Positions 1,861-64,000 of a stretch of DNA of 64,000 bases are shown here, piece by piece (the first letter of the stretch is position 1; the number at the start of each line of letters is the position of its first letter). The stretch lies in assembly GCA_014904985.1 (NCBI GenBank), contig MU128922.1, positions 258,249 through 322,248 of the forward strand, given 5' to 3'. A model generated the notes under the pieces. That model ran no database searches. It had not been told where the DNA came from and saw only the letters and a program-made list of their open reading frames with translations. The stretch is from Hydnum rufescens UP504. Taxonomy: Eukaryota > Basidiomycota > Agaricomycetes > Cantharellales > Hydnaceae. A program made the position numbers and the translations under genes.

Positions 1861-1921
1861 CACTGCTCTCTTAAAGAAACACATTTACCCCCTATTTTTC
1901 CCACAACTAGAAAAGATCACT

Positions 1922-10765: not shown

Positions 10766-11195
10766 TCCCCATGGGGGAATTTAGGACCTCCTGCTCCACG
10801 GGGTTGAAAACCCGCCCCCGTGACTCATGGGGGTAGAAGCCGCGGGATACATGACGGGGTTGAAAAACCGAGGGAAACCTGCGGGTTTCCCGTGGGACCA
10901 TATCCTCATACTGTATATGGCCCATACAGTATACTGAGGGCCAGAATATTTAATATTTATTTATTTATTGCAACTATATACAATGAGTGTTGCATCAGAT
11001 GTGGGGGCCTTGGCTGTGATCTCATTGGGCGAATTTTCATGCAGGGAAGGACAATGTGTGGCTGTGTGGCTATCGGGCGGGGTTCGTGTGGGTTTTGATG
11101 GGGTGTTCATATTGGGTCACAGGTGGCTGTGTGTTTCGTCTTGTGTGTTCTTGTCGTGGGGTTTTGTGGATTGAGAGGACACTTGAGAGGACACC

Positions 11196-13022: not shown

Positions 13023-13198
13023 TTCAACATCCCCGATCCCATGCCCATTGGGCTTGATGCCGGGGTGAGGCTCAATGCTGATGAGCTGGCAATGTCCGAG
13101 TCATAATCGTCCATGTGAACATGATGAGACACGCAGCCACCGAACACCAAGGGCCTGGCCTCCGAATGGCTGTAAAGTACCGACCAATAAAATACAAC

Positions 13199-14006
13199 CA
13201 CACACCACTTTGGCAGGGGTGGCTATATCTGATAAGTGTTTAAATTAAAACTTGTACAATGGCGCCAAAAGAGCAGCAGTAGCTGCTCTTTTGGCGTTGC
13301 TTCTCTTTTATTTTACTAATGTACTATCTGTTATTCCAGGCTGCCCCCCTGTGTGAAAATTGGCCCAAACAAAGCCCCCACATAATATGGATGTGCGCAG
13401 CCACCGAAATCTCGAGGGTCCAGCTCCCCGAGCCCGTGAAGACCCGCACAGTATGCGACGACGGATAAAACACGGTACCACACACCCGCCAAAGTGGGTG
13501 TGTAGTAATCCGGTGAGTTCTCTGTCAATATACATACAATTATGCCAAAAGTGCTGCTGCTGCAGCTCTTTTGGTGCTGTCTGTTCTCTTTTTTACTAAT
13601 GTACCATTCATTATTCTAGATGGCCCCTCACTGTTGAACACCCGCCCGATGATGACACAGACGAGGTCCCACCTGAAATACACACTGCGCAGCCACCCCA
13701 GACCCTGCCCGAGGGTCCAGCCCTTGAACAACCGCACACCACATGATCACAGCTCAAGAAGGGAAGAAACTTCCGTCTCGTGATGAACCCGCTCAAACCC
13801 AAACTCTGAAGGATAACCAGCGGAGTCTATTGATCATTGGCGATACCTCTCATCGAATGCCACACACCTGCCGCAGCAGGTGTGTGGTGATCTAGGTGGG
13901 TGTTCAATCACTACATATACAAAGGCACCAAAAGAGCAGTGAATCTGCTCTTTTGGTGCTGCCTGGGTTCTTTTTTTACTAATGATGTATTATTCATTAT
14001 TCTAGG
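13199..14006 (+). repeat. Hairpin array I, right half (plus-strand units)
   Basis: Units here point rightward. H1 copies lie near 13264, 13541 (degraded) and 13927. H2 copies lie near 13199 (degenerate), 13478 and 13859. Plus-strand donors (GTGAGT about 13512; GTGGGT about 13896), TTTACTAAT branch points (about 13315, 13595 and 13976) and CAG or CTAG acceptors delimit exons of about 170-275 nt. The exons share the text GCGCAGCCACC with the left half. From 14007 to about 14180 lies a last exon-like stretch with no H2. Confidence 0.7.
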
Positions 14007-15288: not shown

Positions 15289-17975
15289 AACTCTTCTACA
15301 GATATGCTCTAGGGCCGCTTAGACTCACAAGATTGCCTCAAGGCTATACCAACTCTATGCAAGTCTTCTGTCACACAACCTCACATATGATCAGATCTAT
15401 GGCACCCGATTGTGCCAACATCTTTGTGGACGACTGCGCAGGAATGGGACCCTGGTCTGACTATGGCAATGTTCCAATTCCTGAGAACAAGCAAATTCAC
15501 CACTTTATTTTTGAGTTTGCTACGATGCTACAGGAGCTTCTAATACGAGTTAAAGTTTCTGGTGCTACTATTGCGGGCCAGAAGGCTATTATTGCTACAC
15601 CCCAACTTGCACTTCTTGGAGCCATCGTCTCTAAAGAAGGAGCCCATGTATCACATGAGATTAATGCCAAACTACGAAAATGGCCTACCTGTGCCAATTC
15701 AATGGAAGTTCAAGGGTTCCTCAGAACTGTTGGAGTCATAAGACATTGGATTAAAGACTTTGCAATAATAGCTAAGCCTCTTACCTTGTTAACTTGGAAA
15801 ATGGCACCTAGCAAGTTTGCTTGGAGCCAGGAAGCACAGTGCTCCTTAGACAAGTTGAAACAACTAGCCGCAATGGCTGTACCAATTAAAGCAATCGACT
15901 ATGATCTTGTGCAAACTGTCATATCGAAATCACAATGAAATGACGACTATGGCCTTGTCTCCATTGCAGTGGACTCATCTACTATGGGATGCGGCTGGGT
16001 AGTCAGCCAACAAGTCGATAACATTGATTATCTGATTAATTTCAGATCACTTACCTTCAACAATACTGAGAGTCACTATTCACAGCCCAAATTGGAGTTG
16101 TACGGGGTTTTTTGTGCTTTGAATGCTGAACAATACAGACTACACGGAATCCATTTCCACCTCATGCTAGATGCAAGTTACATAGCAAAGATGATCAACA
16201 ATCCAGGCTTACCCAATGCTGCAATGACGAGATGGATCTCATACATTTTGCTTTTTGATTTTGAAGTAATGCATTTGCCCACTTCAAAACATTGAGGCCC
16301 AGACAGTTTATCATGACATCCACAAGCGAGTCAAGATTCGGATGAGTCTGAAGCAGAATCTGATATTAGCAAGACTATCAAGCTAGTCAAGGTACCAAAA
16401 GATGACTTATCTGAAACCTCAGACACTGTGGAAGACCCGATCTTGCGATTTACAACCTTGAATCGATTATTGGGAGAGAGGAACTCTCTTGAAGTCGATT
16501 GGGTGCAACCTGATTGCATGTCTAGTGAAATTCCAGATGATGAATTTTCACTCGAAGCCTTTGAGGGTGAAGCATTTGTACCTGCTGAAGACGAGTCAAC
16601 AAAGAAGTTAACTCATAAGCATAAGATCTATGAGTACGACACTTCCGAATACTGGGATGAAATCCTAGCGTACCTTACGAGTTTGAAGCTTCCTGAGGAT
16701 TGAAAGTGAAGAAACCACATAGCCAACCAGGCTAGGCACTTCTTTATTCTGGAACAAATGCTTTGGCGACATAATGGTGACAAGCCACCTCTTCAAGTCA
16801 TATTGAGCAAAGAGATCCATATGAGGATTTGTTGAGACGCACACGACAAATCCAGACATTGAGGATGAGACCCGACCTTTCATAAAGTCCGAGACTCGTA
16901 CTGGTGGCCTAACATGTACAATTTTATCGCTCAGTACTGCCTGACTTGCCATGAATGTCAAATGCGATCGACTTACAGGAATACAATTCCTATTCAACCG
17001 CAGTATACTCGCATGTTACTCAGGCGATTCAATATGGACTCGGTCCATATGCCTAAAGGGAAACATGGGTTTAGATATGTTGTTGATCTAGTTGACAATC
17101 TTACCAGGGTTCTTGAGGCTACGAAGCTGAAAGCTTTATCATCGGACAAGATTGCCGACTTTTTATTCAACATCATGTGTCAATACGGCTGCATTTTCCA
17201 GCTTACAATTGATAACAGATCTGAGTTCAAGGGAGCTGTTGAGGGCCTCATGCAGAAATATAAGGTGCCTGTTGTTAAAATATCACCTTATAATCCTCAA
17301 GCAAATGGAAAATCCGAACGCAGACACACTGTATGGATTAATGCACTATGGAAGACATCGTCGATCCAAATCTATGATTGGCCCGACTATTTAGGCCATG
17401 CTATCTGGGCTGATCAGGTGATGGTCAAACGAAACACGGGATACACTCCCTATTATTTGCTGTATGGCCAGCACCCGCTTATGCCCCACAATGTTAAAGA
17501 CTGCACTTTCCATTCTTTGGATTGGCCGTCTGTAAAAAGTACCAAAGACCTTCTTGCATTAAGGATCTTGCAGATCAGCAAATGAGATGATCTACTGGAT
17601 GAAGCCGTGTTAGCAAATGAAAACTCGCAAAGGAAAGCTGCTGCTGCCTTCAATCAAAAACATGCAGTGCGAATGAGATCTGGGGAATATCACCCAGGAG
17701 AATGGGTTATTGTTTATAATGAGGCCCTAGACACTCAGCATGGTCAAAAAGGAATGGCTAAATGGTACAGACTGTTTATAATCATTCAACGAAGGCCATC
17801 TGGCACATATATCGTACAACAACCCGATGGTGTCGTCTTGTGCAAGCCAATAGCCTGGAAAAGATTAAAGCTTTACCATTTTCGAGAGAACACAGAACCT
17901 ATCATTACAAAGCCCATATGGAATTATTACGAGGAAGATCTTGTGATATCCTCTGCAGCCAGACCGGGTGACTGA
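15289..17975 (+). pseudogene. Gypsy-1 pol: RT, RNase H and integrase
   Basis: RT resumes at GPLRLTRLPQGYTNS and has the catalytic FVDD at 15423-15434, which would copy element RNA into DNA. RNase H follows at about 15951-16295 (VAVDSSTMGCGWVVSQQ). A variable linker leads to integrase at about 16914-17585, with CLTCHECQMR of the zinc finger, core Asp at VDLVDN and LTIDNRSEFKG, and Glu in NPQANGKSERRH. A C-terminal domain runs on to 17975. Frames are separated by TGA stops, many at likely former CGA codons. The N-terminal RT fingers are missing. Confidence 0.85.
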
Positions 17976-38970: not shown

Positions 38971-41900
38971 ATGGCATGCATAGACCCGTCAAATCCGGCG
39001 GAAATACGGCAGGTGTATATTTCAGGTCCGCCGTCTGCTTGCATCCAACAATTTGTTTCTAACAGGCTTATTTGGCCCTCCCGACAGGTGCCGTGTGCAA
39101 CAGTCGTCTGCTACGTATATCAAAACAATATTGCCTTTACTTGCCAACCCAGCCCCGCGCGAACATCATTGGACTTCGTTCGCCCTGCTCGGAATACATC
39201 AAGGCAACACTGGATGCCGTGGCGTGGAAGGATCCCTTCGGGGAGGGTTTGTAGGTCTACTTCACGCCTGTATACTTCATGGCCCTTTATTCACACTCAC
39301 TCGGCAGCGCCGTTACTCCAACGCCTATCGGTTCCAGAGTTGATATAGATTTGCTTGAGCGCCGTTTTTGGCGTTCAGGGCGGATTGTTGCATCGTGTGG
39401 TTTGGATCTCTCCTCCATGATAGCCGAAGGTAAACCTGCTCACATTTATGCAAAGATATGACCACGCTCACGCTTGGTCTTTGTTCCTTCAGAGATCTGC
39501 CTCGATTTGAAAGATGTTGCGAACAATAACTTCGGAGTGTTGACAATACGCGTGGCATCCTCTCTCGCAACCACAAATGATGCCGTCGGGAGTGCCAGGC
39601 AGGCTGCCGGGCAACTAGGTCCGGGACCAGCGGTCGTCAACGACGCCATTCAAGTTATCGCCCCACTTGCAACAGAAATCACGGCCCAGTTCAATGCTTG
39701 GAGCCCGTTGTTGAGTCGCCTCGCCACACTTGTCAAAGTTGCCGATACAATTGCCGAGGCATGTTGCATCCTGAATCACCTCTGCCCCGCGAGCACTAAG
39801 AAGTGTTTACAAATAGATTCACCCTTGGATCAAGGTGACATGGGGAGTCGTCTCAGCAGTGTATCGGGTAAGACTAGGATCAAATTTTCTATCTGTGTAC
39901 TCTCTGATTGGTGTTCCATTAGATCCCTTCTGCCCAGAGTGACCGAGATGCGAAAGTGATGGCATTAGTCGAAGCTATGGCAGACACCTGCTCCTTTGCC
40001 GACGATGCCGAGGGGTTGGAGAAACGCTCGAAAAGAGATCAAGATATCGTCAATCAAATACTACGACAAGTAACGGAATGCGCGTATTTCATTCGGGACT
40101 ATTGCAGGGACAAGTCCTTCGGTATGTGGAATGCTGCATGTTCTACTTACTCCAAGACTGATGAATGTGGGCCACAGCCAAACGCACTGTGAAGTACACG
40201 GTTTCTCTTGTGGACGCACAGATCGATGACTACAAGGGGACCCTAGAGACTCTCAGACGGAATCTGATTGATCATGCGAACATAGAATGCTCTGTCATCA
40301 CACATCGCGTCCTAGACGTTGTGACTGAAGTCCGTGAGTGCTTCTTGAATTTCTTCAGTCAAAATCTGTGTTCTAAGACCGTGTACAGATGAGTGGGCAT
40401 TGCTCAGCGAAATAAAGTATGCCTCGGAGGCCAATCACGATCTAGATAAGGGGTGCTTATCAGGCACGCGTACCGAGATCATCGATACTATAGTGTGTTG
40501 GGCTCTCGGAGCGGATATGCCGTCATCTGATCCGAGCAGCCCGATAATGTTGAACTCCAACGAATCGTCTCGTGTACTTTGGTTGTGTGGCACGGCGGGT
40601 GCGGGGAAATCGTCGATCCTTCGCTCATGCGCGAAACGCATTTCGGACCTTGACCGTTTGGGGTCGTACTATGGATTCGACAAAAACAAGCCTCAGGCAC
40701 TAAACCTTACCAACCTCTTCAGTACGATTGCTCGGGACCTGGCTGACCTCGATGACTCCCGGAAGCAATGGCTTTTCAACGCCGTCAAAGGCAACACCGC
40801 CCTACGAAGAACCGCCAACTGCAAATTACAGTTCCAGCATTTTATCATTGCACCATTTAAGGATAACAAGGCCCTTGGGGAGACCGTTATTTTCATCGAC
40901 ACATTTGACGAGTCTGGGGATGTTGCGGCTCGTGCTGACGCGCTTCACATTCTGACAAAGCGAGCCTCAGAATTCCCTCCGGGTCTTCGAGTTGTAATCA
41001 CTTCGAGATATGAGCCCGATATCCATGATGCATTGCAGTCTCCGCTGCCACCCGGGGTTGACGTCATCCGTGTGGATGATATTCCTACCAATCAGACCTC
41101 GCGCGATATTGCGACGTATGTGCTCGATGAATTCCGTGGCGCGAATGAATTTCGAGAGAAGTACCAGACGGAGCTGAGGGACCTGATTCGGATGGCGGGA
41201 ACGTCCTTTCAGTGGGCTGCTACCGCCTGCCGCTTCATTCGCATGGATAATAAAGCTGGCGTCGGCCCGCAGGACCGGATTGCAGCGGTGCTTAATAGTG
41301 ATGTCATGCTATATAAGCTCTATGGCACCGTCATGAAGGAGCACTGCGATCCATCTGTTGAGATTGCAGTCAAACGAGTTAAATCGATCCTAGGACGAAT
41401 TATATGTGCTCAGGAGCCTTTATCATTGCAGACTCTTGTGCACCTAGTTCCACCCGACTCTATCCTCACTCCAGATGACATGGAGATACAACGAGGGATC
41501 GTGAGGCATCTCGCATCGCTCCTTAGCGGTACTCACAGTGACTATGAACCGATCGCACCTCTCCACTCGTCTTATCGTGAGTTCTTGTGTAGCCCAGAGC
41601 ATAACAAAGACTTCTACATCGACAAAGGTGAAGCAAATCAGTGCATGGCCCTTGCGTGCTTCCGCGTGATGGAGAAGAATTTGACATTCAATATTTGTCA
41701 AATTTCGACCTCCTTCCTTCGCAATGTCGCCATCCGTAACATTAAGGGACCCCTGAAAGAACCCATCCACTCTCATCTGTCTTATGCTTGTCGATACTGG
41801 GGCTTCCATGTGTCTGCAACACATACTAGTGAGGTTGCTCAGAAGCACATGCAGTCATTCTTTCAGCAGTATTTCCTGCACTGGCTGGAAGTGATGAGTC

Positions 41901-44414
41901 TTACACAGAGCTCCCCTCAAACTGCATTAGCCTCACTTAGCATCTCTCATGTGAGCACAGCTCCAATTTGGCCACATGCTAAATCTTCAGGATAATTCTT
42001 AGCATCCATTCCCCAGATTGCCACTGACCTTGTTGAGTTGCGACATGATGCAATGCAATTCATTTCCATGTTTGCAGCTGCTATTGCTACAAGCATGCCC
42101 CATATCTACCTCTCTGGCCTGACATTTGCCCCTGCATCATGTCTTGCATATCAGAGATGGGAAGGCCAATTTCCAGGAGTTGCAAAACTGGCTCAGGGGC
42201 GACTTGAGCACTGGCCAAACATTATGCTGATCTTAGAAGGACACCAGCAGGCTGTACTATCTGTTGCTTTCTCACCTGATGGCAAGCAGATTGCTTCAGG
42301 CTCTTCAGACAAGACTGTGCGACTCTGGAATGCAGAGACTGGTGTGAGCATTGGCAAGCCAATGGAAGGGCATGATAACCACATCTGGTCCATTGCCTTC
42401 TCACCCAATGGCATGCAGATTGCTTCTGGCTCCTCAGATGGGACCATACGGCTGTGGAACATGGAGACAGGTGCAAGTGTTGGTCAGCCAATGGAGGGGC
42501 ATGATCATGCCATTCGGTCCATTGCTTTCTCCCATGATGGCAAGCAGATTGTATCAGGGTCCCAGGACAAGACCATACGACTCTGGAATGTGGAGAGGGG
42601 TGTGATAATTGGCCAGCCAATAAAGGGCATGCTGATGCTGTTCAATCCATTGCTTTCTCCCCTGATGGCAAGCAGATTGCTTCTGGTTCCTTGGACAAGA
42701 CCATACGACTCTGGAATGCAGAGGGAGGTATGAGCATTGGTGCCCCCATGGAGGGGCATGATGGGCCTATATGGTCAATTGCTTTCTCACCTGATAGCAA
42801 GTGGATTGCTTCTGGCTCCTGGGACAAGACCATACGACTCTGGAATGTGGAGACAGGCACAACCATTGGCAAGCCAATGGAGGGGCATGATGGTGCCATC
42901 TGGTCCATTGATTTCTCACCTGATGGCAAGCAGATTGCTTCTGGCTCCCAGGATAAGAGCATACGACTATGGAATGCAGAAACAGGTGTGGGCATTGGCC
43001 AGCCAATGGAGGGGCATGATGGTGCTATCTGGTCCATTGCTTTCTCACCTGATGGGGAGCAAATTGCTTCTAGCTCTTTGGACAAGACTGTACGGCTTTG
43101 GAATGTGGAGATGGGTGTGAGTGTTGGCCAGGCAGTGGAGAGCCATGAAAATGCTGTTTTGTCTATTGCTTTCTCACCTGATGGCAAGCAGATTGCTTCT
43201 GGCTCCCAGGACAGGACTATACGACTATGGAATGTGGAGACAGGGGTGAGCATTGGCCAGCCAATGGAGGGGCATAATGATGCCATCTTGTCCATTGCTT
43301 TCTCCCCAGATGGCAAACAAATTGCTTCAGGCTCCCAGGACAAGACCATACAACTCTGGAATCTGGAGATGGGTGTTAGCAGTGGCCAGCCAATGGAGGG
43401 ACATGATGATGCCATTCAGTCCATTGCTTTCTCCCCTGATGGCAAACAGATTGCTTCTGGCTCCTGGGACAGGACCATACGACTCTGGAATGTGGATGGA
43501 GGTGTGAGTGTTGGCCAGCCAATGAAGGGCATGCTGCAGCTGTCTGGTCAATTGCTTTCTCACCAGATGGAAAGCAGATTGCTTCTGGCTCCTGGGACAA
43601 GACTGTACAAATCTGGGATGTGGAGAGGGGTGTCAGCATTGGCCAGCCAATGGAGGGACATGATGGTGCCATATGGTCCATTGCTTTTTCCCCTGATGGC
43701 AAACAGATTGCTTCTGGTTCCTCAGATAAGACCATACGACTCTGGAATGTGGATAGGGATGTGAAGGCTGGCCAGCTGATGGAAGGGCACAATGTTACCC
43801 CCTGGACCATTGCTTTCTCACCTGATGGCAAGTGGATTGCTTCTGGCTCCAAGCACAAGACCATACAGCTGTGGAATGCAGAGACAGGTGCAAAAGTTGG
43901 CCAACCAATGGAGGGGCATGATGGTGCTATCTGGTCAATTGCCTTCTCACCTGATGGCAAGCAGATTGCTTCTGGCTCCTCAGACAAAACCATACGACTC
44001 TGGAAGGTGATGATTGATGCAAGTAATAGCCAGCCAATTGAGGGGCAATGTACAATCCAGTCCATTGATTTCACACCTGATGGCAATTTTCCCACCTGGA
44101 ATAATACTGTCCAAGTTTCACAGTTGCCCACTCCAGAGTCCAAACACATATCCCAGTATCCAGTCCCTCTATTCCCACTCCCTCCATGCTCTTTTCAAAT
44201 TGATAATGGATGGATCTTAGGACCCAGTGGAGAGCTTATCCTTTGGGTCCCTGCTGCTTACCGTGCATCCCTGGAACACCCTCACTGTCGGATCATGGGA
44301 ACTCCCAACAATACCCAGATTGATTTCCAGCACCTTAAGTATGGGGAAGAGTGGGCAGAATGTCAAGAATTGGCTGGTGAAGCCCAGGATGTTGATGGTT
44401 CCAGGAATATGTAG
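38971..44414 (+). CDS. NLR: C2-like/helical N-terminus, NACHT, WD40 repeats
   Basis: This is a STAND-type receptor of the class linked to non-self recognition in fungi. The N-terminal exons (38971-39600) read like a C2-type beta domain (EICLDLKDV...[11 protein letters not shown]). A helical region (39600-40390) includes [11 protein letters not shown]. The NACHT domain is mostly in one open stretch, 40400-41960, with the P-loop GTAGAGKSS (40589-40615), a Walker B-like [12 protein letters not shown] (about 40887-40921) and the sensor region [11 protein letters not shown]. An intron at about 41960-42012 leads into 14 WD40 repeats of 129 bp (about 42235-44040) plus a decayed fifteenth. The gene ends with [14 protein letters not shown], the usual tail of these proteins. 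Two one-base losses inside the WD40 array (about 42625 and about 43532) shift the frame. The start is uncertain. Confidence 0.8.
42235..44095 (+). repeat. 14 near-identical WD40 repeats (129 bp units)
   Basis: Each unit encodes [23 protein letters not shown] and GQPMEGHD with few changes. Differences are clustered at the positions after SGS (S, W, Q, L) and before SIAFS (IW, IQ, IL, VL), which lie on the exposed faces of a propeller. Units 4 and 11 share the variant AAGGGCATGCTG in place of GAGGGGCATGATG and are both one base short. Confidence 0.85.
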
Positions 44415-44993
44415 ATTTCTCAACAGTATGAGTGATTGATTATACTTCCCTCAGCTGTCTTCCTTAATTTGGGTGACACTGGGTCCATGCCTCATTAGGT
44501 TATAGGCCCATAAAGGCTGGCACCTCAGTACCACCTGAAGTTATGACAACTGCAGAACCCAGTGACATCAAGTCTTGTATGCTGTGATTCACAGTTTTCA
44601 ATTTCCCAATATGGAAAGCTCAAGTCAGTGCAAAAATTTGAACCCTTGGTGCATCTGACATCCTATTTGGTGCCAAAACATGCCCTTCCAGTACACCCTG
44701 AGTACCACCATCACTGAAGCCCATGACTGTGCTGCAGCCAAAAGGCACATTGCCATTCCCTCATGGATATGGATGCCTAGGCTCAGTTTTGGTTTGGTTT
44801 TTCCCCTAACCCTGACTTGAACAACTCAGTCAACCACAAATGTATATCTGGTTAGATATTATGAGCCTTGCATTTATATAGTCTAACTAGAGGTTTTGAT
44901 GCCTGGGGCTGGCTAAGCCAGTTTCCATGATTCAGGCAGGGGCCCCTGTGTGGGACTTAGAGTGGCCACAGAACTTCAATATATTGGGTTAGG
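44415..44993. other. Intergenic, no gene seen
   Basis: This is the 3' flank of the NLR, with no open frame of note. It contains TTAGGTTATAGGCCCATAAAG near 44496, similar to the Copia LTR/primer-site junction, possibly a trace of an old Copia. Confidence 0.35.
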
Positions 44994-46328
44994 CACCTTT
45001 GTCAGTCACCTAATCTCAGACTTGCACAGTGGGCCATACAGGCTTATTGGGGATAATATGTTCCATTTATAATTATTTATTTATTATCACTATATTGTAC
45101 ATATACCACCCCTGGTCAGCAGGGTTTTGTTCAGTGGTCCCATCATTGACTTGTTTATTTATTAATTTATTTAAGAATCCAATTAATATACCACACCCAC
45201 TTGGGTGAGTGTGTGGTACAGTGCATAGAAATTAAAAAAAAAGACACTATCTAGTAGCACCACACACCTGCATTGGTGGGTGTGTGGTACTTGTGTTTGC
45301 CTGGGGTCATGTACTTTTGACTGCCAGTTTTCCATACAGTTCACAGGTGGGTTGGGGGGTTTTTGGGCATGTACTCATTTGGGGGAAGGAAGATCTAGAA
45401 TACAAAATTTAGATCAGTAAAAAGTTGAAGTGACACAAAAAGAGCAGCCTTTGCTGCTCTTTTTGTGCCATTGGGGGTGCATTACATGCCTTGTATAGAA
45501 CCACACACCCACAGTAGTGGGTGTGGTTCAGTTCTTTGTGTGGGGCATCACTGTCAGTGGGTCTCCTTTGTGGGTGTGTTATCATTGTAGGGGGCTTGCT
45601 TTGTGGGTCTTCATTTCTGGTGATACCTAGAATGAAAGATTAATAGTTAAAAAATTTAAAGCAATGCAAAAAGAGCAGCTTTTGCTGCTCTTTGTGTGCC
45701 ATTGGGTACATGAGAATTACATACCTTACATAGAACACCTCGGTCAGCCAACTGGATAGGCCTTAATAGGTGGGACAAATGCCTCATCTAGTCATCCTAA
45801 CAGGCCTATTTTTTCTTTGATGTCAATTGACAATCTTTGGATGTCAAATTGACATCTTTCTCAACACTTTGTGGACTATCTGGGGTCATCAGGCATTAGG
45901 ATTATTTGCTTATTATTATTATACTATTATATGGAGTAGTACAGTCTGTAGGCCTACACCTATGCTAAAAATCTAACACCTTGGATTCACACACATCTGT
46001 GGCAGCAGGTATGTGGGCCTTCATTTGCCCCTTCATGCAGGCCCCGGTTCATGTGTTTGCATGCCTTTGTGGCTGCATGGGGTCTTGCATTGCTGCAGCA
46101 GGTGTGTGGGCCTTCATTTGCCCCTTTGTGCAGGCCCTGGTTCATATGTTTGCATGCCTTTGTGGCTGGGTGGGTTCTCATGTTTGATTCCTGACTCCAC
46201 AATGTCAGGTGGGACACTTATGGAAAATAATCTGTTAGTTAAAGTAAAACCTGTGCAAAAAGAGCAGTGGTGGCTGCTCTTTTTGTGCATTTGTAGCTAT
46301 TAAAAAAACATACCTTATATTGGGGTGG
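44994..46328 (-). mobile_element. Array element C, truncated
   Basis: The left end CACCTTTGTCAGTCACC (44994) matches the left end of element B (56865). It is followed by the same AT-rich subterminal region and minus-strand array units: H2 near 45189, 45260, 45500 and 45989 (degenerate); H1 near 45434, 45664 and 46256. The exon at 45300-45395 is nearly the same as 57740-57845 in element B. A tandem duplication of about 95 bp lies at 46004-46190. The element is cut at 46329 by a Gypsy LTR; its centre and right side are missing. Confidence 0.7.
45736..45972 (+). mobile_element. D-type element left end inserted in element C
   Basis: The stretch starts CACCTCGGTCAGCCAACTGG and matches 50055-50190 for about 130 bp. 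It breaks an array unit just upstream of its H2 copy. No matching right terminus is visible, so it is a fragment. Confidence 0.45.
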
Positions 46329-53593: not shown

Positions 53594-54486
53594 AGGATAC
53601 GTCCTGCCTGACCAACAGATTCACCCCTCTCGAAAATTGTACATATGGAATGGGAAATGACATGTTTTTTCTCCGATGATGAGAGTGATGATTCTGAAAG
53701 TGTATCCACCAATACCGACCCCACCGAGTTTCCCCACCTACCATCCACCTCCTTTCCGAAGACCCCAGACGAGCCACCGAGGTCAAGGTGAAACTCCAAT
53801 CACCCGGACTGGAACCATCTGTGCCGGAACTGCTCTGCTCGACTCTGGAGCCACCGGAATGTTCATGACCCGACCTTGCACGAAAGAAATGCTTAGGACA
53901 TACCGCCCCACTTGTGCGCCCCAATCCCTGTCTAACAATGTCGACGGACCTCAACGAGATGGATCTGTCGCGAGGAAGTAGAGGGTCATCCTCCGGGATC
54001 GACGACCAATCCGAACGGGTAGTGTTTCTGTGATTGGATTAGGGAAAGACTAAAACTGATCATCAGGGCAACCTGGCCCACATCAACAACCCGGCAGACT
54101 GATTGGACAACCAGGTAAGATCACCACTAACCCGCTGTCCCATCGGACTGCCGTGTAGTGATCCGGAACTCCCGGATTGCGGAATGCGGAAAGGGAGAAA
54201 ACGGAAAGCCACCCACAGACAGCCCAGGAAACCCACTGCTGAAGAGGATATCGCCGACGAACCCCTTAGAGAAGGGCGACGCTATATTCGCGCGCCTACT
54301 TTCCAGTGATAGTGAACACTTCTGAAGGTTCATCCGAGCACTAGCACCCCTTCAAAGATTGCGGAGGGCTGCCAGAAGGCAACAACCACCGAAAACCTTC
54401 GAGGAATTAGTTCCCGGAGGAATTCCAAGACTTCCGAGACGTCTTCTCCAAGACTCCTTCGACCCCAACTTCCCCCAGACGGAAAC
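53594..54486 (+). pseudogene. Gypsy-2 protease and start of pol
   Basis: An aspartic protease motif LLDSGATGMF (DSGATG from 53841) is present. Near the end FEELVPGGIPRLPR and LLQDSFDPNFPQTET correspond to the short region before RT. The frame stops at about 54486, where array element A joins. Confidence 0.65.
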
Positions 54487-56825
54487 CGCAATAATCACAA
54501 TTATTTATTATTATTTACTTAGGATTCTTATGTCCATAGCATGTTATTATTACTCTACTACTATACATGTATTTATCCCCTGCTGTGTTTTCACTCAGCA
54601 TGGTAGTAAACAAAAAAAATTGAAGGCAATGCCAAAAGAGCAGCCGGGGCTGCTCTTTTGGCATCGTGGTACCTCATAACGAAAAGAAAGCACACCTAGT
54701 ATTGCCACATACCTGCCAAAGCAGGTATGTGGTGCCGTATTTGTTTCATCGGCATATAGGTGGTGATAGTCGAGGGGGGACTTGGGTGGCTGCGCATGCT
54801 CCCGTGTTTCGCCCTGGGCCCTGTCTGTTCATGCGGCGGGTGGGGTATCATGGGGTGGAGCTATCTAAAATAATAATACATTAGTAAATGAAAAAAAAAA
54901 ATACAGAAGGCAATGCCAAAAGAGCAGCTGGCATGCTCTTTTGGCATTGTCATATACTTGATAACGAAAAACTCACCTAAGAGCGCCACACACCCACCGA
55001 AGCGGGTGTGTGGCACTGCATTTGCTTCGTCGGCACATATGTTGCGGATAGTCGAAGCGGCAGGGGGTGGCTGCGCGTGCTGCCATGTTTCGCCCTGGGC
55101 CTGTCTGTTCATTCGTCGGGTGTGGTATCACGAGGTGGAGGTATCTAGAATAAGAACAGATTAGTAAATAAATAAAAAACAAGGCAATGCCAAAGAGCAG
55201 CTGGCGCTGCTCTTTTGGCATTGTTGTATACTGCATAACTAAAAAAAACTCACCTAAGAGTGCCACACACCCGCTTCAGCGGGTGTGTGGCGCCGTATTT
55301 GGTTGTCGGCGTGTATGTTGCGGATGGCTGAGGGGGGGGACCTTGGTGGCTGCGCGTGCTGCTGTGTTTCGCCCTGGCTGTCTGTTCGTTCGTCGGGTGG
55401 GTATCGTGGGGTGGAGGTATCTAGAATAAGAACAGATTAGTAAATAAAAAACGAGGCAACGCCAAAAGAGCAGCTGGTGCTGCTCTTTTGGCATTGTCGT
55501 ATACTGCATAACTAAAAAAAACTTACCTAAGAGTGCCACACACCCACCGAAGTGGGTGTGTGGCACTGTATTTGGTTGTCGGCATGTATGTTGCAGATGG
55601 TTGAGGGGGGGGATCTTGGGTGGCTGCGCATGCTGCCGTGTTTCGCCCTGGCTGTCTGTTCATTCGTCAGGTGGGATATCGTGGGGTGGAGGTATCTGGA
55701 ATAATAACAGATTAGTAAATAAATAAAAGGACAAGGCAACGCCAAAAGAGCAGCTGGCGCTGCTCTTTGGCATTGTCGTATACTCTGTAACAAAAAAAAA
55801 CTCACCTAAGAGTGCCACACACCCGCTAAAGCGGGCATGTGGCACCATATTTGTTTCATCGGCATCTATGTTGCAGATACTCGAGGGGGGCTTGGGTGGC
55901 TGCGTGTGCTGCTGTGTTTCGCCCCGGGCCTGTCTATTCGTTTGTTGGGTGAGGTATTGTGAGGTGGAGGTATCTCTAGAATAAGAACAGATTAGTAAAT
56001 AAAAAAAAGACAGAAGGCAATGCCAAAAGAGCAGCTGGCGCTGCTCTTTTGGCATTGTCATATATTCCATTAGTAAAGAAACTCATCTAAGAGTGCCACA
56101 CACACGCCGAAGCAAGTGTGTGGCATGTGCCGTATATCTTGTGGATAGTTGAGGGGGGGACCTTGAGTGGGTGGATACTGGGTGGTGGGGTCTGGGTGGC
56201 TGCGTGCTCCTGTATATTGCCCTGGGCTTCATCTGTGCTTGTGTACATCGGTATTTTTCCTCAGGCCTCGTCAGTGGTGGTTTCAGGTTTCGGTTCGCGC
56301 AGGGAGAAAGTACCTAAATAGCAAATACAGTACATTAGTAAAAGAAAAAAAAACAATACAAGCAGCGCCAAAAGAGCAGCTGGTGCTGCTCTTTCGGCGC
56401 CGTACTACATCCCATAAAGAAAGACTTACTTAATAGTACCACACACCCACCGCAGTGGGTGTGTGGTTCGCATGGCCACCTCTCGTGTTTTTCCTTGGTG
56501 TTGTTTCGTTGGGCGTGGTGTGGTTTTGTTGGGTTTGGCATGGGGGTTGGGTGTGGTTTTGTTTGGCTTCGTTTTGTTTTGTTTCGCGTGGTTTTGCATA
56601 TTTCCACTGGGGCCCTGACCAATCGGGCCTCGTTGTTTGGGGGCTTCATTTGACTCCATGGCATGACCTAGAATGGAAGGGGGTCAGTAAGGTAGCGCAA
56701 AAAGAGCAGCTTTCGCTGCTCTTTTTGCGCAGCTGTATCTATTGGGGGGGAGACTCACCTTAAATACAACCACACCCGCCACAGCGGGTGTGGTTGTGGT
56801 TGTGCACTAGGGCTGCTGCTGCTGC

Positions 56826-56860
<35 letters not shown>

Positions 56861-56864
56861 TTGC
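54487..56864 (-). mobile_element. Array element A, left half
   Basis: Eight minus-strand units are clear. H1 starts near 54630, 54913, 55187, 55459, 55740, 56021, 56366 and 56696. H2 starts near 54703, 54983, 55262, 55536, 55815, 56095, 56438 and 56770. Reading leftward, each exon ends with H2 and TTAG or AAG before GTGAGT or GTAAGT. H1 follows, then TTTACTAAT, then CTAG. Exons of about 150 nt are alike (ATGCGCAGCCACC; CAACATA..GCCGAC). The right edge is a CTG repeat where element B is inserted. The left edge meets Gypsy-2 with no recognisable terminus. The element continues at 62592. Confidence 0.72.
56806..56864 (-). repeat. CTG/CAG repeat, element A first exon (cut)
   Basis: The run of GCTGCTGTTGCTG units encodes a Gln stretch on the minus strand, as in element B at 59588-59686. 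The GTTGTTGC at 56857-56864 is repeated at 62592-62599 on the far side of element B. Confidence 0.7.
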
Positions 56865-57249
56865 CACCTTGGTCAGTCATCTAAGCCTACCTAGTTAGGT
56901 ACCACTTTTGGGGCAGATAATGGTACCTAAGTAGGTCCCATCACTATTCCGGCCGAAATGGCCATTTTATGGTCTGCACCTTCTGGCTCAGAATTGGCCG
57001 AAATGGCCGAAAATTGGCCGAAACTGGGACTTAGAGAGCATCTCAGACTTGCAGGACAGTGGGCCATGCGGGCTTATCAGGGATAATCACCAGTATTTAT
57101 TATTATATTCCCCCCTCTGGTGTTTCATTTATAGTTATTTATTTATTATCATTATCACTCACCCCAGGTGGGGGCTGTTTTCATTTGGCAGTCTCATGTT
57201 TTTTTATCAACTTATGTATTTATTTATTTAAAAATTCAATTAAAAAAAC

Positions 57250-59515
57250 ATACCACACCTGCTAGGGCAGGTGTGGTACCATCCGTTGCTTCCTCGAGAC
57301 TTTGAATGGGGGGTCGTCCGGTGTTCAGATGCGGGTTCAGGGGGCATGTTGCTGGGGTGTCGGGCAGCAAAATATTAAGTTAAAAAACAGACCTTTTGTA
57401 CCACACCCCCGCTGAGGGGGGCATGTGGTACTGGGCATTGCTGCCTTGGGGCTTGGATGGGGGCTCGCCCGGCTCGTCGGTGGCCATTTGGGCGGGCTTG
57501 GCTTGGCGGTTCACCATTGTGCAGGTCGTTTGGGGGTCACGGCTGTCTGTTGTCTTCGTTTCAGGAGCTTCAAATTCAATCCTAGAATTGAATGATAATG
57601 AACATTAGTAAAAAAAATTCAAAGTGATGCCGAAGGGGCAGCTTGTGCTGCTCCTTTGGCGTCACTGTAGATGTAGAAAGTTTTAAAAAAAAATACCTTG
57701 TAGTACCACACACCGCATTGGCGGGGGTGTGGTACTCTGTTGTCCAGGGTCGCGTACCTTCGACTGCCAGTTTTCCGTACAGTTCTCGGGTGGGTTGGGG
57801 GGGTTTCGGGCACGTACTCGTTTGGGGGGAAGGAAGATCTAGAATACAAAAATTTAGATCAGTACAAGTTAACACAACGCAAAAAGAGCTGCCTTCGCAG
57901 CTCTTTTTGCGCCGTTGGGGGTGCGTTACATTACATACCTTGTATAGAACCACACACCCACTACTGCGGGTGTGTGGTTCGTCTCTGTGTTTGGTGCGTC
58001 GTCGTTCACGGGGATGTTGTCGTTCTGGCGGGGCTTCGTGGGTCTTCATTTGCGGCGATACCTAGAATGAACAATTATTAGTTAAAAAATTAAAAGCGAC
58101 ACAAAAAGAGCAGCTTTCACTGCTCTTTTTGCGCCGTTGGATACGGGAAAATCGCCTCCCTTAAATAGTACCAGACGCCCGACCGTGGCGGGTGTCTGGT
58201 TTGCATTGGTTTTCATTGCAGGGTTTGGTGGTGCGTTCGTCGGGTTTTCTTTTGGCGTGGCTTCAGTTGGACTCTCGATTAGTAAGAAAAATTCAAAGTG
58301 ACGCAAAGGGAGCAGCTTGCGCTGCTCCTTTTGCGTCGTTGTACATATAGAAATAAAATAAAAAAATAAAAGCCTTGTAGGACCACACCCACTGAAGTGG
58401 GTGTGGTCCTTGGTTTGTACCGCGGTCGTGCGGTTCGTACTCGGTACGGGGCTTGGTCGTCATGTTGGGGGTTTGAACCCTCGCAGGTTTCGTTTGGCGG
58501 GTCCGTTGCCATTCTCGTGTGTTTGCTTGGTGGGGTCATGGGTTCAGACAACCTAAAATAACGTACAATACGTTAGTAAAAAGGAAAAAAGAAAAGCCAC
58601 GCAAAAGGAGCAGCATACGCTGCTCCTCTTGTGTGGTTATATGCTCACCTTAAAATTACCCCACACCCGCTCGGCGGGTGTGGTTCTGGCACGTCGTCGT
58701 TCGGGGGTCCCCTTTGCGGGCGTGTTATCATTGTGGGGGGCTTGCTTCGCGGGTCTTCGGTCTTCATTTGTGACAATACTGTACCTAGAATAAAAAATCA
58801 TTAGTTAAAAAATTAAAAGTGACACAAAAAGAGCAGCTTTCGCCGCTCTTTTTGCGTCATCGGGGGAACATTACATACCGGCATAGAACCACACACCCGC
58901 TACTGCGGGTGGGTGGTTCTCTTCATGCTGCGTCATCGTTTGCGGGGGTATTTTTGTTCTGTTGAGGGGTTGTTTCGCGGCTCTGCCTTCGTGACGATAT
59001 CTAGAATAAAAAATCATTAGTTAAAAATAATTAAAAGCGACACAAAAAGAGCAGCTTTCGCTGCTCTTTTTGCGTCGTCGGGGGTACATATCAAGTATAG
59101 AACCACACACCCGCTACTGCGGGTGTGTGGTTCGTCTCTTCATGTGGCGCATCGTCATTCGTGGATCCCGTTTGTGGGCGTGTTATCGTTCTGGGGGTTG
59201 CTTCATGGGTCTTCATTTGTGGCAATACCTATAATCAAATAATATTAGTTAAAAAACGTAAAGCGACGCAAAAAGAGCAGCTTTCACTGCTCTTTTTGCG
59301 CAGCTGCATCTATTGGGGGGGAGGAGACTCACCTTACAGTACCACACCCGCCGCAGCGGGTGTGGTTCCTGAGCCACTCATTGGGCAGCCTGTCGTTTGT
59401 TTTGGTTTTGACCTGGAATAATAAAGGCTACGTTAGTATAAAATTCATAGCAAGCGCAAAAAGAGTAGCTTGCGCTACTCTTTTGCGCTATTGTATCTAC
59501 TGAGACAAAACGTAC
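57250..59515 (-). repeat. Hairpin array of element B, left half
   Basis: H1 starts near 57628 (degenerate), 57878, 58097, 58301, 58599, 58824, 59041, 59267 and 59455. H2 starts near 57252, 57400, 57706, 57950, 58172, 58380, 58660, 58888, 59101, 59341 and 59521. Minus-strand splice signals accompany nearly every unit. Paired changes are frequent: GAGTAGC/GCTACTC at 59455, GGAGCAGC/GCTGCTCC at 58599, and CCAGACGCCCG/CGGGTGTCTGG at 58172. Confidence 0.75.
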
Positions 59516-59820
59516 CTTATGACCACACACCCGCATCAGTGGGTGTGTGGTCTGTGTGGTTGTGGTCATGCGGTTGTGGTCGTGCGCTGTTGCTGCTGCT
59601 GTTGCTGCTGTTGCTGCTGCTGCTGTTGCTGTTGCTGCTGCTGCTGTTGCTGTTGCTGCTGCTGCTGCTGTTGCTGTTGCTGTTGTGTCGTGGTCGCGCG
59701 GTCGCATTTCTGTTGCTGGGTGTGGCTGTGTAGTTGCGAATTCAACGCCGGCAATTGCCGATACTCAAGAAGTGCCCAAGCGCTGGCACTGCAAGCACAG
59801 CACACAATAGTACCAAACAT
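59516..59820 (-). pseudogene. First exon of element B, left copy (polyQ)
   Basis: The minus strand reads MFGTIVCCACSASAWALLEY, then RQLPALN and a Gln run from the CTG repeat (59588-59686). The end is H2 and a GTACG donor at 59515. It is the mirror copy of 60309-60487. A TGA and a TGA/TAG-type stop fall before the donor, so this copy is not open to the splice site. Confidence 0.5.
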
Positions 59821-60382
59821 GTATATTTAAAATAAATACTATATAATGAATATTTGTCCAGGAAAACCCGAAGAAGGCGATGATAATGAGTCAGAGCCCA
59901 ATAAGGCATGAGACGCGAATTGCAGAGTGGATTGGGCCACTTCTACGCATCCGAATTGGCCCAAATTTAAATATAGTAGTGTTATATATACACTCTACAT
60001 GGGCGATTGATTATCTCGGATGATCCTTCGCATTTTTCAATTTTTCACGCCTTCAATTCCCTAAATAGGGAATTGAAGGCGTGAAAAATTGAAAAATGCG
60101 AAAATCGTCCGAGATAATTAATCGCCCATGTAGAGTGTATATATAACACTACTATACTCAAATTTGGGCCAATTCTGATGCATAGAAGTGGCCCAATCCA
60201 CTCTGTAATTAGCCATCTCATGCCTTATTGAGCTCTGACTCATTACCATCCTCTTCTTCGGGTTTTCCTGGACAAAATTTTATTATATAGTATTCATCTA
60301 TAATATACATGCTTGGTACTATTGTGTACTGTGCTTGCAGCGCCAGCGCTTGGGTGCTTCTTGAGTATCGGCAATTGCCGGC
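59748..60382. repeat. Palindrome of about 640 bp (centre of element B)
   Basis: The two arms are nearly identical inverted copies with centre at 60064/60065 (CCCTA AA TAGGG). Outer arms carry the shared first-exon text. The inner part is AT-rich and includes TATATATAACAC, so each arm could hold a promoter firing outward. This is inferred from layout only. Confidence 0.85.
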
Positions 60383-60487
60383 ATTGAATCTGCATCTTGC
60401 TTCCTATCTCCGCAACCACAACAAGCAACCGCCCGAAAAGGCAACCGCACGACCACGCACCCACCGCTGCGGGTGTGTGGTCACAAG
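60309..60487 (+). CDS. First exon of element B, right copy
   Basis: ATG 60309 opens MLGTIVYCACSASAWVLLEY, followed by RQLPALN and a Lys/Pro/Arg tail, and runs without a stop through H2 to a GTGAGT donor at 60488. Joined to the next exon (from 60594) the frame ends after about nine residues. The product is unknown. Conservation between the mirror copies suggests either a real peptide or simple arm homogenisation. Confidence 0.45.
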
Positions 60488-61860
60488 GTGAGTATTTTTT
60501 CTAGTAGATACAACAGCGCAAAAAGAGCAGCTGATAGCTGCTCTTTTTGTGCTGCTTTGGAACATCTTACTAACGTCTCTTTATTTATTTTAGATTGAGG
60601 CCTCATCCAACGCACGAATGAGAGCCCAAACAGCCACTGCGACATATGGAAACGCTGACGCAGCAACGCGACATCCGGCAACATGACACAGAAACATGAT
60701 GCATGACGCACGACACGGCAACGTGCCAAACGAAGACGTGCCAAATGAAGATGCGCAAATGAAGACGCGATACATGGTAATGTGACACACGGCAATGCGA
60801 CCTACAGCAACGCGCCAAATGAGGCCCCCAGGAACCACACACCCGCCACGGCGGGTGTGTGGTACTATATAATGTGAGTCCCCCCCCCCAGTAGCTACAG
60901 GCACGCAAAAAGAGCAGCAAAAGCTGCTCTTTTTGCACTGCTTTGGAATTTTTTCTTTACTGATGTGCATTATTCTAGATTAGGGCCCGTCCAATGCAGG
61001 ACGATAACCCACGAAACGACGAAAGCCCAAACAGTGACGTGCCACACAGCAACGCGACACGGCAACGCGACACGGCAACGCGACATGGCAATGCGACATG
61101 GCAATGCAATACATGGCAGCACGATACACCAACATGACACAGCAATGGGCCAACGATGCAACCGCACCAAAGCCCATGGCAGCGCGCCAAACAAGGGCAC
61201 GGAATCACACACCCGCCCCGGCGGGTGTGTGGTTCTATATCAGGTAAGTCCCCACCCCCCTCAGTAGCTACAGCCATGCAAAAAGAGCAGCGAAAGCTGC
61301 TCTTTTTGCATGGCCCTTATTTTCTAACTAATTAAAATAATATTTTGTAGGTTTCAACTGCCCTCGCAAATGAATACCGACAAAGAACCCCCATAACCCT
61401 GCCTATCGACCCTGAAGACGGGGGACCCGTATGAACCACCATGCATACAAGCCGGCATATGTACACACCGGCGTATGGACGAGCCGGCGTGCACGGTCCC
61501 AGTACCCTACACCTGCGGGTGTGGGGTACAAGGTATGTGTTATGTTTTTTTTTATTTCTTAGTCTTGTGGCGCAAAAAGAGCAGCATAAGCTGCTCTTTT
61601 TGCATTGCATTAACGTTGTACTAACATTGAATCCCTTATTTCTATAGACCTTGACCAGAACCCACATGAACCCCCCTGAACCCGCCAAATGACACCCTGG
61701 GAAACAAACCGCGAACGAGCCCCTGTGAACGAAAACCGCTCCCTCAAGGGAGCGCCCAAATGGAACTGGCCCTGACGGGGCATATGAACCCACCCGCTGT
61801 GGCGGGTGTGGTGGGTATATGCAGGTGTGTGACCCGCAGGAACCACGCCCCCCCCCCCCT
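60488..61860 (+). repeat. Hairpin array of element B, right half, with four introns
   Basis: Predicted introns are 60488-60593, 60874-60978, 61244-61350 and 61533-61647 (106, 105, 107 and 115 nt). Each has a GTGAG, GTAAG or GTATG donor, an H1 hairpin in the middle, CTAAC or similar, and TAG. H1 starts near 60518, 60904, 61275 and 61570. H2 starts near 60449, 60835, 61205, 61501 and 61790. Exons 2 and 3 carry internal degenerate repeats of GCAACGCGACACG type and have no long common frame. Confidence 0.75.
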
Positions 61861-61889
61861 GTGGTGGCAGACCCGGGGGGGATAATATG

Positions 61890-62440
61890 ATATATATAAT
61901 AGTAGTAATAATAATATAATATAGTATAATATAATAATAAAATAGTAAACATAATAATAATAATAATAGTAAGTAATATAATAATAAGAAAGTAATAATA
62001 ATATAATAATTAGATAATAATATTGAATAATGAGTTAATAATAAAATATAGTAAGTAATAATAATAATAATAAAATAGTAGTAATAATAATAATAATAAT
62101 ATAGTAGTATAATAATAAATAATAATAATAGTAATAATAATAATAATAATAATAGTATAATAATAATAATATAATAGTAGTATATAATAATAGTAGTATA
62201 ATAATAAATAATAATAGTAGTATAATAATAATAGTAGTAATAATAATAACTAGTTAAGTAATAATAAATATAGTAGTATAATATAATAGTAGTAATAATA
62301 ATAATAGTAGTAATAATATATAGTAGTATAATATAATAGTGTAATAATAATAATAGTAGTAATATAATAATAGTAGTAAATAATAATAATAGTAGTAATA
62401 ATAATAATAATAATAGAGTAATAATAATAATAATAAATAT
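61890..62440. repeat. (TAA)n-rich tract
   Basis: About 550 bp of ATAATAATA units with AGTAGT variants lie between the last array exon and the right terminus of element B. Open frames of Ile, Leu and Tyr here are artefacts of composition. Confidence 0.9.
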
Positions 62441-62591
62441 TAGCACAGCCATGGATTGGCTGACAGATGGCCAAAAACTGAATTGAAATGGTGATTTGGC
62501 CGTTTAAGGTTTGGGGACCTCTTAGGTACCATTTTCTGCCCCGAAAGTGGTAAACATAAAATCTAAGGTCCCCCCCATGACTGACAGCCTG

Positions 62592-64000
62592 GTTGTTGCT
62601 TGTTGTATTGGTCGGCGGTCGCTTTCTGTTGCTGGGTGTGGCTTGCGGCAGTTGTGAATTCACAACTGCATTGCTGATATTCAAGAAGCGCCAAGTGCTG
62701 GCACTGCAAGCACAGAACACAATATAAGCCAACCATGATATGTGAAACAAAACTATATATCAATACTTTGCCAGGACAACCTGAAGAATACATTGGATAA
62801 TGAGTCCAGAGCTCAAATAAGGCTGAGACTGGCCTGATTGCAGAGTGGAGTGGGCCACTTCTATGCATCAGAAATTGGCCCAAATTTTAAATATAATAAT
62901 GTTATTAATAACTCTACACTGATGATTATTATCTGGATGATTCTCGCATTTTTCAATTTTTTCATGCTTCAATTCCCTTAAATAGGAATTGAAAGGTGTG
63001 AAAAATTGAAAATGCGAGAATCGTCCGAGATAGATCAATCACCATGTGTTTATATATAACATTACGATATTTTAAGTTTAGGAGCCATTCTGATGCCGGC
63101 ATAAAAAAAAAAAGTGCCCAAATCCACTCTGCAATCAAGCCATCTCATGCTTATTGGCTCTGACTTCATTTATCAATGTTATTTTTTAGGGTTGTTCTGG
63201 GCAAATATTTATTATATTAGTATTTATTCACAATATAAATGGTTGCTACTATTGTGTTCTTGTGGCTTGCAGTGCCAGCATTGGGCGGGGTTCTTTGAAT
63301 ATCCGGCAATTGCCAGCATTGAATCTATCTTTGCTTTTTAATGCTCTGCAACCACAAACAAGCAACCGCACCGAAAAGGCAAGCGAACAGACACGAACAC
63401 CTGCCGCTGCGGGTGCGACAAGGTGAGCTGTTTTTCCTTAGGTTTTAAAGATACAATGGCACAAAAGGCAGCGAAAAGCTGCTCTTTTTGTGCTGCTTTG
63501 GAATTTTTTAGCTAACACACCTTATATTTATTTTAGATTTTGAAGGCCTCACCCAACGCACAAGAGCCCAAATGGGAATGAACACGCAGCACAATGCATG
63601 GGATGTGAATGGCAGTGCGACGGGCACGGAACGACAGCAGCAGTGGCGACGTACAGCAAAGCACGACACGGCAGTACGATGCAGGCAGCGCGACAACACG
63701 GCCAACGTGACACAGCAATGTGCCACACGACGGCGATATACGGGCACTGCAACCAAAACGAGGAACGGACCGGGCGTCAAAATGACATGACAGGATCAGC
63801 ACACCCGCCAAGGCGGGTGTGTGATTCCATATCAGGTCAGTTCCTCCGCCCCCACTACCTACAAGCCATGCAAAAAGAAGCAGCGAAAAGCTTGCTCTTT
63901 TTGCATGGTATTTATTTTTAAAACTAATTTATACCTTCTATTACAGACTTTAATTCTCCGCACCAACGAATACCGACACAACCCGAAAACCCCCCTTCCT
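62592..64000 (+). mobile_element. Array element A, right part (runs off the window)
   Basis: Directly after element B the sequence resumes with the first-exon text of element A. A decayed palindrome follows (about 62655-63325, centre near 62981), then plus-strand units. Introns are 63423-63536 and 63836-63946. H1 lies near 63458 and 63868, H2 near 63398 (degenerate) and 63800. Compared with element B it has many one-base indels and lost CpG sites, so A is the older copy. Confidence 0.7.
62655..63325. repeat. Decayed palindrome (centre of element A)
   Basis: The arms share inverted similarity throughout (AATTCCCT..AGGAATT at the centre, TTCAAGAAGCGCCA against TGCCAGCATTGGGCG..TTCTTTGAA outside) and align with the palindrome of element B. 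Confidence 0.75.

Follow-up and report, generated by a model that had tools for sequence, protein, structure and literature searches.

A candidate KDZ-type transposon of Hydnum rufescens with arrays of hairpin-bearing exon-intron units

Introduction

Here we describe a repeated, hairpin-bearing element in the genome of the agaricomycete Hydnum rufescens UP504, found at positions 54487-64000 of a 64,000-nucleotide stretch of contig MU128922.1 that we call the window. Two palindromes, H1 (GCGCAAAAAGAGCAGC / GCTGCTCTTTTTGCGC) and H2 (ACCACACACCCGC / GCGGGTGTGTGGT), alternate throughout this span. The best explanation of the whole, to which we assign a probability of about 0.6, is a non-autonomous transposon of the KDZ type that carries a spliced, non-coding RNA with hairpins. 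The initial annotation of this DNA had reported a dispersed array of two alternating palindromes, and direct reading of the sequence bears out that both exist and alternate. They are not free-standing, being instead fixed parts of exon-intron units inside a transposon; the splice signals, transposon ends, nesting and fixed polarity of the array go beyond that first account. Its copy numbers, about 35 of H1 and 38 of H2, apply to the whole window with its remnant arrays at 11195-14005 and 45248-46320 and not to 54487-64000, where they had been placed. A recount of the window gives 37 places that match a unit profile (H1 in 35, H2 in 34) and at least one extra H2 (57251-57278) outside them; 23 H1 fall within the 54487-64000 span alone.

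Both hairpins recur throughout the genome. A pattern count over its 63,185,524 bases (539 contigs, ~63.2 Mb) found 2350 exact copies of H1 and 929 of H2, along with 266 exact copies of the core of the palindrome from which the arrays diverge (positions were listed for 50 of these 266 and, for H1 and H2, for the first places among the matches listed). Since reversed-pattern controls for H1 and H2 gave no matches genome-wide, this recurrence is not due to chance.

Two Hairpins in a Repeated Exon-Intron Unit

A profile scan of the window and of fetched loci that total ~200 kb, with some overlap, yielded 257 units, or 237 without near-duplicates and N-containing copies. Each consists, in order, of an AC-rich exon, H2, ~9 nt, a 5' splice site (AAG|GTGAGT or GTAAGT), H1, a branch point (TACTAAC/T) and a 3' splice site (TTATTCTAG). 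At the aligned place, 206 of the 237 units have GT, 221 have AG and 208 have the branch-point motif, leaving decayed signals in 31 units without GT and 16 without AG. In the 206 GT-bearing units, the distance from H2 to the 5' splice site has a median of 9 nt (sd 2.0), and that from the 5' splice site to H1 is 31 nt (sd 7.3). The former distance prefers odd values, with 7, 9 or 11 nt in 165 of the 206. Counted from the junction, the median start of the H2 loop is -25 (5-95%: -20.5 to -27), and the loop typically occupies -25 to -22. Introns have a median length of 105 nt, of which H1 accounts for 36 nt and leaves ~69 nt, while the median exon length is 172 nt, over the 95 exons that could be delimited between 165 parsed introns. 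From this anatomy, H1 and H2 are very probably fixed components of a repeated exon-intron unit.

The units are arranged on both strands so that they lead away from a central, promoter-like palindrome. In the window, those at 54.6-59.6 kb lie on the minus strand and those at 60.4-63.9 kb on the plus strand; of the 167 units whose nearest exact palindrome is no more than 3 kb away, 157 face outward and 10 inward. Eight of the inward ones can be assigned to a neighboring element from their position. The remaining two are one at C2:158841-158982, which is unexplained, and one at C5:295278-295441, which overlaps a plus-strand unit and probably arose as a palindromic cross-match. Unit types are partly conserved in order between elements (60 of 152, compared with 23.5 expected).

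Paired Changes in the Stems

The initial annotation had proposed that stem pairing is kept while the sequence changes, to be checked by aligning the units and setting stem covariation against their phylogeny. A tree built from the non-stem columns of the 237 units upholds the proposal. Two-sided changes that keep a Watson-Crick pair number 46.7 in H1, compared with 3.1 (sd 4.2) for random partners, and 26.0 in H2, compared with 5.1 (sd 4.0). With CpG pairs excluded, H1 has 28 co-changing branches (25 of them Watson-Crick-keeping) where 2.7 are expected under independence, and H2 has 22 (12 Watson-Crick-keeping) where 3.1 are expected; slid controls on the same tree reach 1.0-3.0-fold above independence. 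A smaller set of 42 units (31 from the window, 11 from the locus L007) gives the same result, with all five measures of its stem test above all 500 shuffles. Among them, 96.0% of cells are paired (90.8% in shuffles), 65 cells carry a double change (20.8 in shuffles, 4-13 for slid partners) and covariation is 0.214 (0.123 shuffled). RNAalifold pairs both stems (6 pairs in H2, 17 in H1), with a kept double change in 14 of the 23 pairs. Covariation beyond phylogeny, as looked for in a structured RNA, is thus found both on the 237-unit tree and in the 42-unit shuffles. The paired arm variants named at the outset are all present, with the correction that two are imperfect complements: seen on the transcript strand, that at 58172 contains an A.C mismatch and that at 61501 a U.G wobble.

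Matched arm changes could also arise free of selection if palindrome-templated repair or gene conversion copied one arm onto the other, which would explain them without any function. The co-changes at CpG pairs, 1.6-2.2-fold above independence, agree with such copying, but this excess falls inside the range of the slid controls. Moreover, of 934 cells at CpG stem pairs, 164 retain a single-arm G.U (T.G in DNA) and 154 an A.C (C.A), intermediates that repair should erase. Repair also predicts neither the G.U bias nor the loop polarity described below, and we regard it as highly improbable.

Probable Selection on the Transcribed Strand

In the 237 units, CpG stem sites decay to TG and CA equally on both strands, as loss of 5-methylcytosine would give, a sign of cytosine methylation of the elements. 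Outside CpG the two mismatches are found at about 2:1, with 180 G.U and 84 A.C. The difference persists in 96 disjoint pairs of units (87 vs. 38, p=1e-4), among distinct events within clusters (44 vs. 18, p=0.003) and after tighter clustering (30 vs. 12, p=0.012), while a non-stem control shows 538 C/T and 468 A/G differences. Wobble is therefore tolerated in a strand-specific manner, as in a structured RNA. Two breakdowns temper this result. Under the tighter clustering each hairpin taken singly is borderline (H2 p=0.082, H1 p=0.055), and by stem pair 16 of 25 lean to G.U, 6 to A.C and 3 are ties (p=0.026).

The loops are polar as well. Those of H1 are GNRA in 64 of 237 units and its reverse complement in 1; for H2, UNCG accounts for 36 loops and the reverse for 11, part of these counts reflecting shared descent. 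Private substitutions per non-CpG site are lowest in the stems (H1 0.024, 66/2768; H2 0.037, 82/2206), followed by the branch point (0.050) and the 3' splice site (0.061), and higher in the loops (0.120 and 0.188) and the exon (0.127-0.202). Within the unit, the stems therefore rank first in conservation and the splice signals second.

Because G.U exceeds A.C outside CpG yet not at CpG, selection at the level of the transcript is favored, and we consider it likely that it acts on the RNA of the transcribed strand. The initial annotation had left RNA structure, cruciforms and palindrome-directed repair side by side. The position of the hairpins relative to the splice signals, the polar H1 loops, the G.U excess and the stem conservation now favor the first and disfavor the other two. 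At the level of DNA, H1 and H2 would be binding sites or cruciforms for a transposase or a dimeric host protein, both half-sites being read, much like the subterminal repeats of other DNA transposons. The elements are indeed DNA transposons with palindromes on both arms, and the stems are far more conserved than their flanks. However, splice-linked placement, a single loop polarity and G.U over A.C are strand-specific features, unexpected for double-stranded DNA, and the sites fill the whole element rather than its ends only. Such a DNA-level origin is improbable in our estimate.

The Mobile Element and Its Probable Relation to KDZ Transposons

Searching 21 stretches, many of which had one end, identified five elements of 4463-5727 bp with CA..TG ends, all with 8/8 target duplications; a shifted-window control gave none. 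The elements flanked by perfect 8-bp duplications lie at 56865-62591 of the window, L007 3711-9019, L026 1219-5919, L029 1593-6196 and C56 149-4611 (a joined piece), and their end motif is CA..GTCAG[C/T]CA. The array-element end motif CAGCCTGGTCAGCCA resembles the KDZ-element end CAGGCTGGTCAGCCATAT. At C56, an array element is nested beside a KDZ gene, whose downstream sequence ends with CAGGCTGGTCAGCCATAT (reverse) inside another array element; compared with the array-element end CAGCCTGGTCAGCCAATTAT, this points to a shared terminal repeat, as read from one end of one KDZ element. Exact KDZ-type ends number 46; eight of them lie 1.5-3.1 kb and one 5.7 kb from a KDZ domain, in a single orientation (146 of 154 reported KDZ matches were used, from a search that scored 150 of 584 candidates). 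According to PMC12730594, Zisupton and one Dileera element make 8-bp target duplications. With an end motif common to a KDZ-element end and duplications of the length reported for Zisupton, the array elements are probably non-autonomous, KDZ-type (Zisupton-like) transposons, moved in all likelihood by a KDZ transposase, a kind of protein abundant in this genome. As no transposase was found within them, they can only be called non-autonomous: ten ATG frames of at least 120 aa from the five elements (at most four each) match no Pfam family, a KDZ transposase included, and the KDZ gene of C56 lies outside the array element at 149-4611.

Several observations weigh against this assignment. None of the array elements seen contains a KDZ gene, and of 59 ends of the L007 type, only the C56 pair has a KDZ match less than 10 kb away on the inward side, by nesting. 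Units occur at one of six KDZ loci, compared with none of six hAT loci (within ~1.5 kb for hAT). Transposons of the hAT superfamily likewise produce 8-bp duplications. They are present in this genome with 90 matches. Kyakuja, the KDZ branch of many Agaricomycotina, makes 7-bp duplications (PMC12730594). Finally, at L048 (C16:257650-262460), two ends, facing each other and identical for at least 55 bases, flank units on the minus strand only, with neither a target duplication nor an exact palindrome core (part of the locus is N), which suggests a rearranged or different type of element.

The introns themselves could instead be the mobile entity, an introner family that invaded a repeat. They are similar to one another, hairpin-bearing and numerous, and non-autonomous DNA transposons are the source of introners in many eukaryotes (PMC9860276). 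Against this, the fetched loci show tandem units inside a larger transposon with its own target duplication, and H2, exon and intron recur jointly. We deem an introner origin very unlikely.

Predicted Transcription Units and Coding Potential

The cargo of the probable KDZ-type element would be a pair of divergent transcription units, intron-dense and non-coding, that extend from a central palindromic promoter to AATAAA-bearing tails close inside the element ends. In the outer tails of the five elements, AATAAA occurs 46 times in the sense (outward) direction and 5 times antisense, while inside the arrays it occurs once in sense and 41 times antisense, the latter perhaps largely from T-rich intron ends and some of the tails being of low complexity. 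Exon bodies consist of 0.33 A, 0.32 C, 0.21 G and 0.14 T and look non-coding. Tandem protein-coding exons were rejected, as the lengths of the 95 exons modulo 3 are 26/33/36 and stops number 212/193/235 in the three frames.

Other observations count against a spliced non-coding RNA. Open frames are more frequent in the exons than in shuffles (0.64 vs. 0.40, sd 0.04), so some coding is possible, and the predicted folding of exon bodies is slightly stronger than that of mononucleotide shuffles (mean z -0.87, n=59). Transcription and splicing of the array elements are themselves predictions from the sequence.

A further possibility is processing by Dicer or a related RNase III, in which H1 would yield a mirtron-like intron product and H2 an exon product, making or mimicking small RNAs. 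The host has RNA-dependent RNA polymerase domains, and 24 of 26 weak Rfam matches in 54400-64000 are to microRNA models (of these 24, 10 fall on H1 hairpins and 14 on palindromes). None of these 26 reaches the gathering score, however, by which a known RNA family was rejected, and microRNA models fit many perfect hairpins. The stems are short, and two distinct stems at two splice-linked places would require an extra reason. On balance we find Dicer processing quite unlikely.

Two other candidates were set aside. Strict homogenization of the central-palindrome arms within an element was rejected: across 17 palindromes the median arm identity is 0.894 within and 0.750 between elements, with sister arms paired in 5 of 17. 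A link to viruses was rejected too, the H1-pattern matches in IMG/VR amounting to four stretches, none with H2, that by their look are bacterial-type terminators; the H2 and palindrome-core patterns had no matches in that database.

A Possible Role in Splicing and RNA Surveillance

As the H2 loop typically coincides with the site of exon junction complex deposition, which lies 20-24 nt upstream of junctions (PMC4509934, PMC4749658), a role for H2 in splicing or surveillance is suggested. That the hairpins act in one of these processes is a tentative proposal, at somewhat less than even odds. H1 would serve as an intron zipper, looping out 36 of ~105 nt and bringing the 5' splice site and the branch point together. 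Stems at this position in a yeast gene improve splicing, presumably through a shortened branch-point distance (PMC2536676). H2 at the exon end, with its loop at -25 to -22, would block loading of the exon junction complex, although so specific an action is doubtful. With its junctions unmarked, a stop-ridden RNA with many junctions might escape nonsense-mediated decay and spliceosome-linked silencing; in Cryptococcus, stalled spliceosomes can trigger siRNA production (PMC6643885). The host genome encodes Mago and RNA-dependent RNA polymerase domains. H1 would thus keep splicing fast and H2 would leave the junctions unmarked, allowing a non-coding transposon RNA to survive. The complete scheme, a transposon-borne device for an efficiently spliced long non-coding RNA that lacks the junction mark and so evades decay and silencing, is speculative and, on present evidence, unlikely. 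No other mobile element designed to avoid the imprint of splicing is known to us.

Further considerations work against such a role for the RNA. Non-autonomous DNA transposons can move without RNA, which leaves the benefit of this RNA to the element unexplained, and the spacing of H2 could be conserved by descent.

Units and Elements Along the Window

Between 54 and 64 kb, one transposon lies nested in the first exon of a second. The inner element is complete (56865-62591, 5727 bp), with ends CACCTTGGTCAGTCATC... and (reverse) CAGGCTGTCAGTCAT..., and homology with other elements begins at its left end. Its 8-bp target duplication, GTTGTTGC, is found at 56857-56864, within a CAG/CAA-repeat stretch of the outer element, and at 62592-62599. 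Because the insertion took place in this repeat stretch, the left array extends past the end of the inner element. The outer element comprises a left arm of eight minus-strand units (54487-56856), whose left end was not located, and continues on the other side with its palindrome and first plus-strand units (62600-64000). The palindrome of the inner element (59672-60456, centre 60064) has arms of ~392 nt that are 85% identical, with TATATATA in each, and is presumed to be a divergent promoter with first exons; that of the outer element (~62587-63324) is 76.6% identical to it.

The left arm of the outer element begins with a full minus-strand unit at 54604-54735 (H1 54627-54666, H2 54705-54732), followed on the same strand by units at 54868-55014, 55148-55292, 55425-55564, 55699-55844, 55980-56124 (with AT as its 5' splice site) and 56325-56469 and by the innermost unit at 56655-56796. 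In its right arm, the innermost unit (63397-63529) and the following one (63800-63937) are on the plus strand.

The left arm of the inner element is likewise on the minus strand. Its outer tail (56865-57598) has five AATAAA on the transcript strand and none on the other, and the outer end of the arm carries an H2 without a recognized H1 (57251-57278). The H2 portion of a unit whose H1 is unrecognized lies at 57380-57430. Units follow at 57598-57734, 57839-57980 (with the paired H1 change AGCTGC/GCAGCT), 58064-58201 (an H2 variant of the CCAGACACCC type, the 5' splice site decayed to GG), 58276-58405 (weak splice signals), 58553-58684 (H1 GGAGCAGC/GCTGCTCC), 58786-58919, 59002-59133 and 59234-59366, the innermost at 59413-59552 having H1 GAGTAGC/GCTACTC. 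On the plus strand, the right arm holds an innermost unit at 60451-60593, further units at 60832-60975, 61202-61346 and 61506-61639 (H2 variant TACCCTACACC/GGTGTGGGGTA), and an outer tail (61640-62591) with seven AATAAA on the transcript strand and none on the other. This tail includes a 540-bp ATA-rich, low-complexity stretch (61896-62436).

Elsewhere in the window, a decayed array element at 11195-14005 has six minus-strand and three plus-strand places that diverge from ~12.9 kb, and another at 44822-46320 has four minus-strand places, two of them without H2, and an end region with 78% identity to the right end of the element at L007. At 40400-44086, a frame for a NACHT-type NTPase (PF24883) precedes WD40 repeats arrayed at a period of 129 bp, together likely a fungal receptor of the NLR type; relatives of the NACHT frame among the 120 matches listed include Astraeus odoratus and Clavulina, at 33-35% identity. 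Retrotransposon remnants at 2642-3664, 6709-7245 and 16914-17585 show matches to Pol_BBD and weak matches to gag and the integrase core, below curated cut-offs.

Comparison with Known Systems

The initial annotation knew of no described family with this design, and this stands among the literature matches listed: none of those on hairpin introners, KDZ/Zisupton elements, spliced satellite hairpins or palindromic Agaricomycete elements has it. The literature covered was mainly non-subscription, and a repeat-library entry for the array element may exist.

Each of the nearest systems shares a part of the design. Non-autonomous KDZ members have in common with the array elements the 8-bp duplications, the CA..TG ends and an end motif also found in a KDZ-coding element. 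The array elements differ in having no recognized transposase and an interior of divergent splice-signal and hairpin arrays around a palindrome, a cargo not described in the available text of PMC12730594, whose Kyakuja elements make the shorter, 7-bp duplications. Introners and introner-like elements also consist of many similar, hairpin-bearing introns of transposon origin. In contrast, the introns of the arrays repeat inside a larger element and are each linked to an exon and to a further hairpin, and separate mobility of the introns was not seen in the loci examined. Transposons can carry satellite-like tandem repeats, as oyster Helentrons reportedly do (PMC7492417), in short head-to-tail arrays inside a non-autonomous element; the units described here have in addition splice signals, two covarying hairpins and a fixed polarity. 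Like the zipper stems of yeast introns (PMC2536676), H1 lies between the 5' splice site and the branch point and would loop out 36 nt. Unlike them, it is reused across the introns of a transposon and coupled to an exonic hairpin, its effect on splicing being a prediction.

Non-autonomous DNA transposons are usually viewed as ends with filler between them. In the present case this filler consists of a repeated RNA architecture, strand-specific and apparently under selection, and a single genome contains 266 exact copies of the palindrome core. Should the transcripts prove real, the units would offer very many natural variants with which to follow the effects of exon-end and intron hairpins on fungal splicing, silencing and the marking of junctions, and the element would be a selfish one that depends on an RNA unnecessary for its own transposition.

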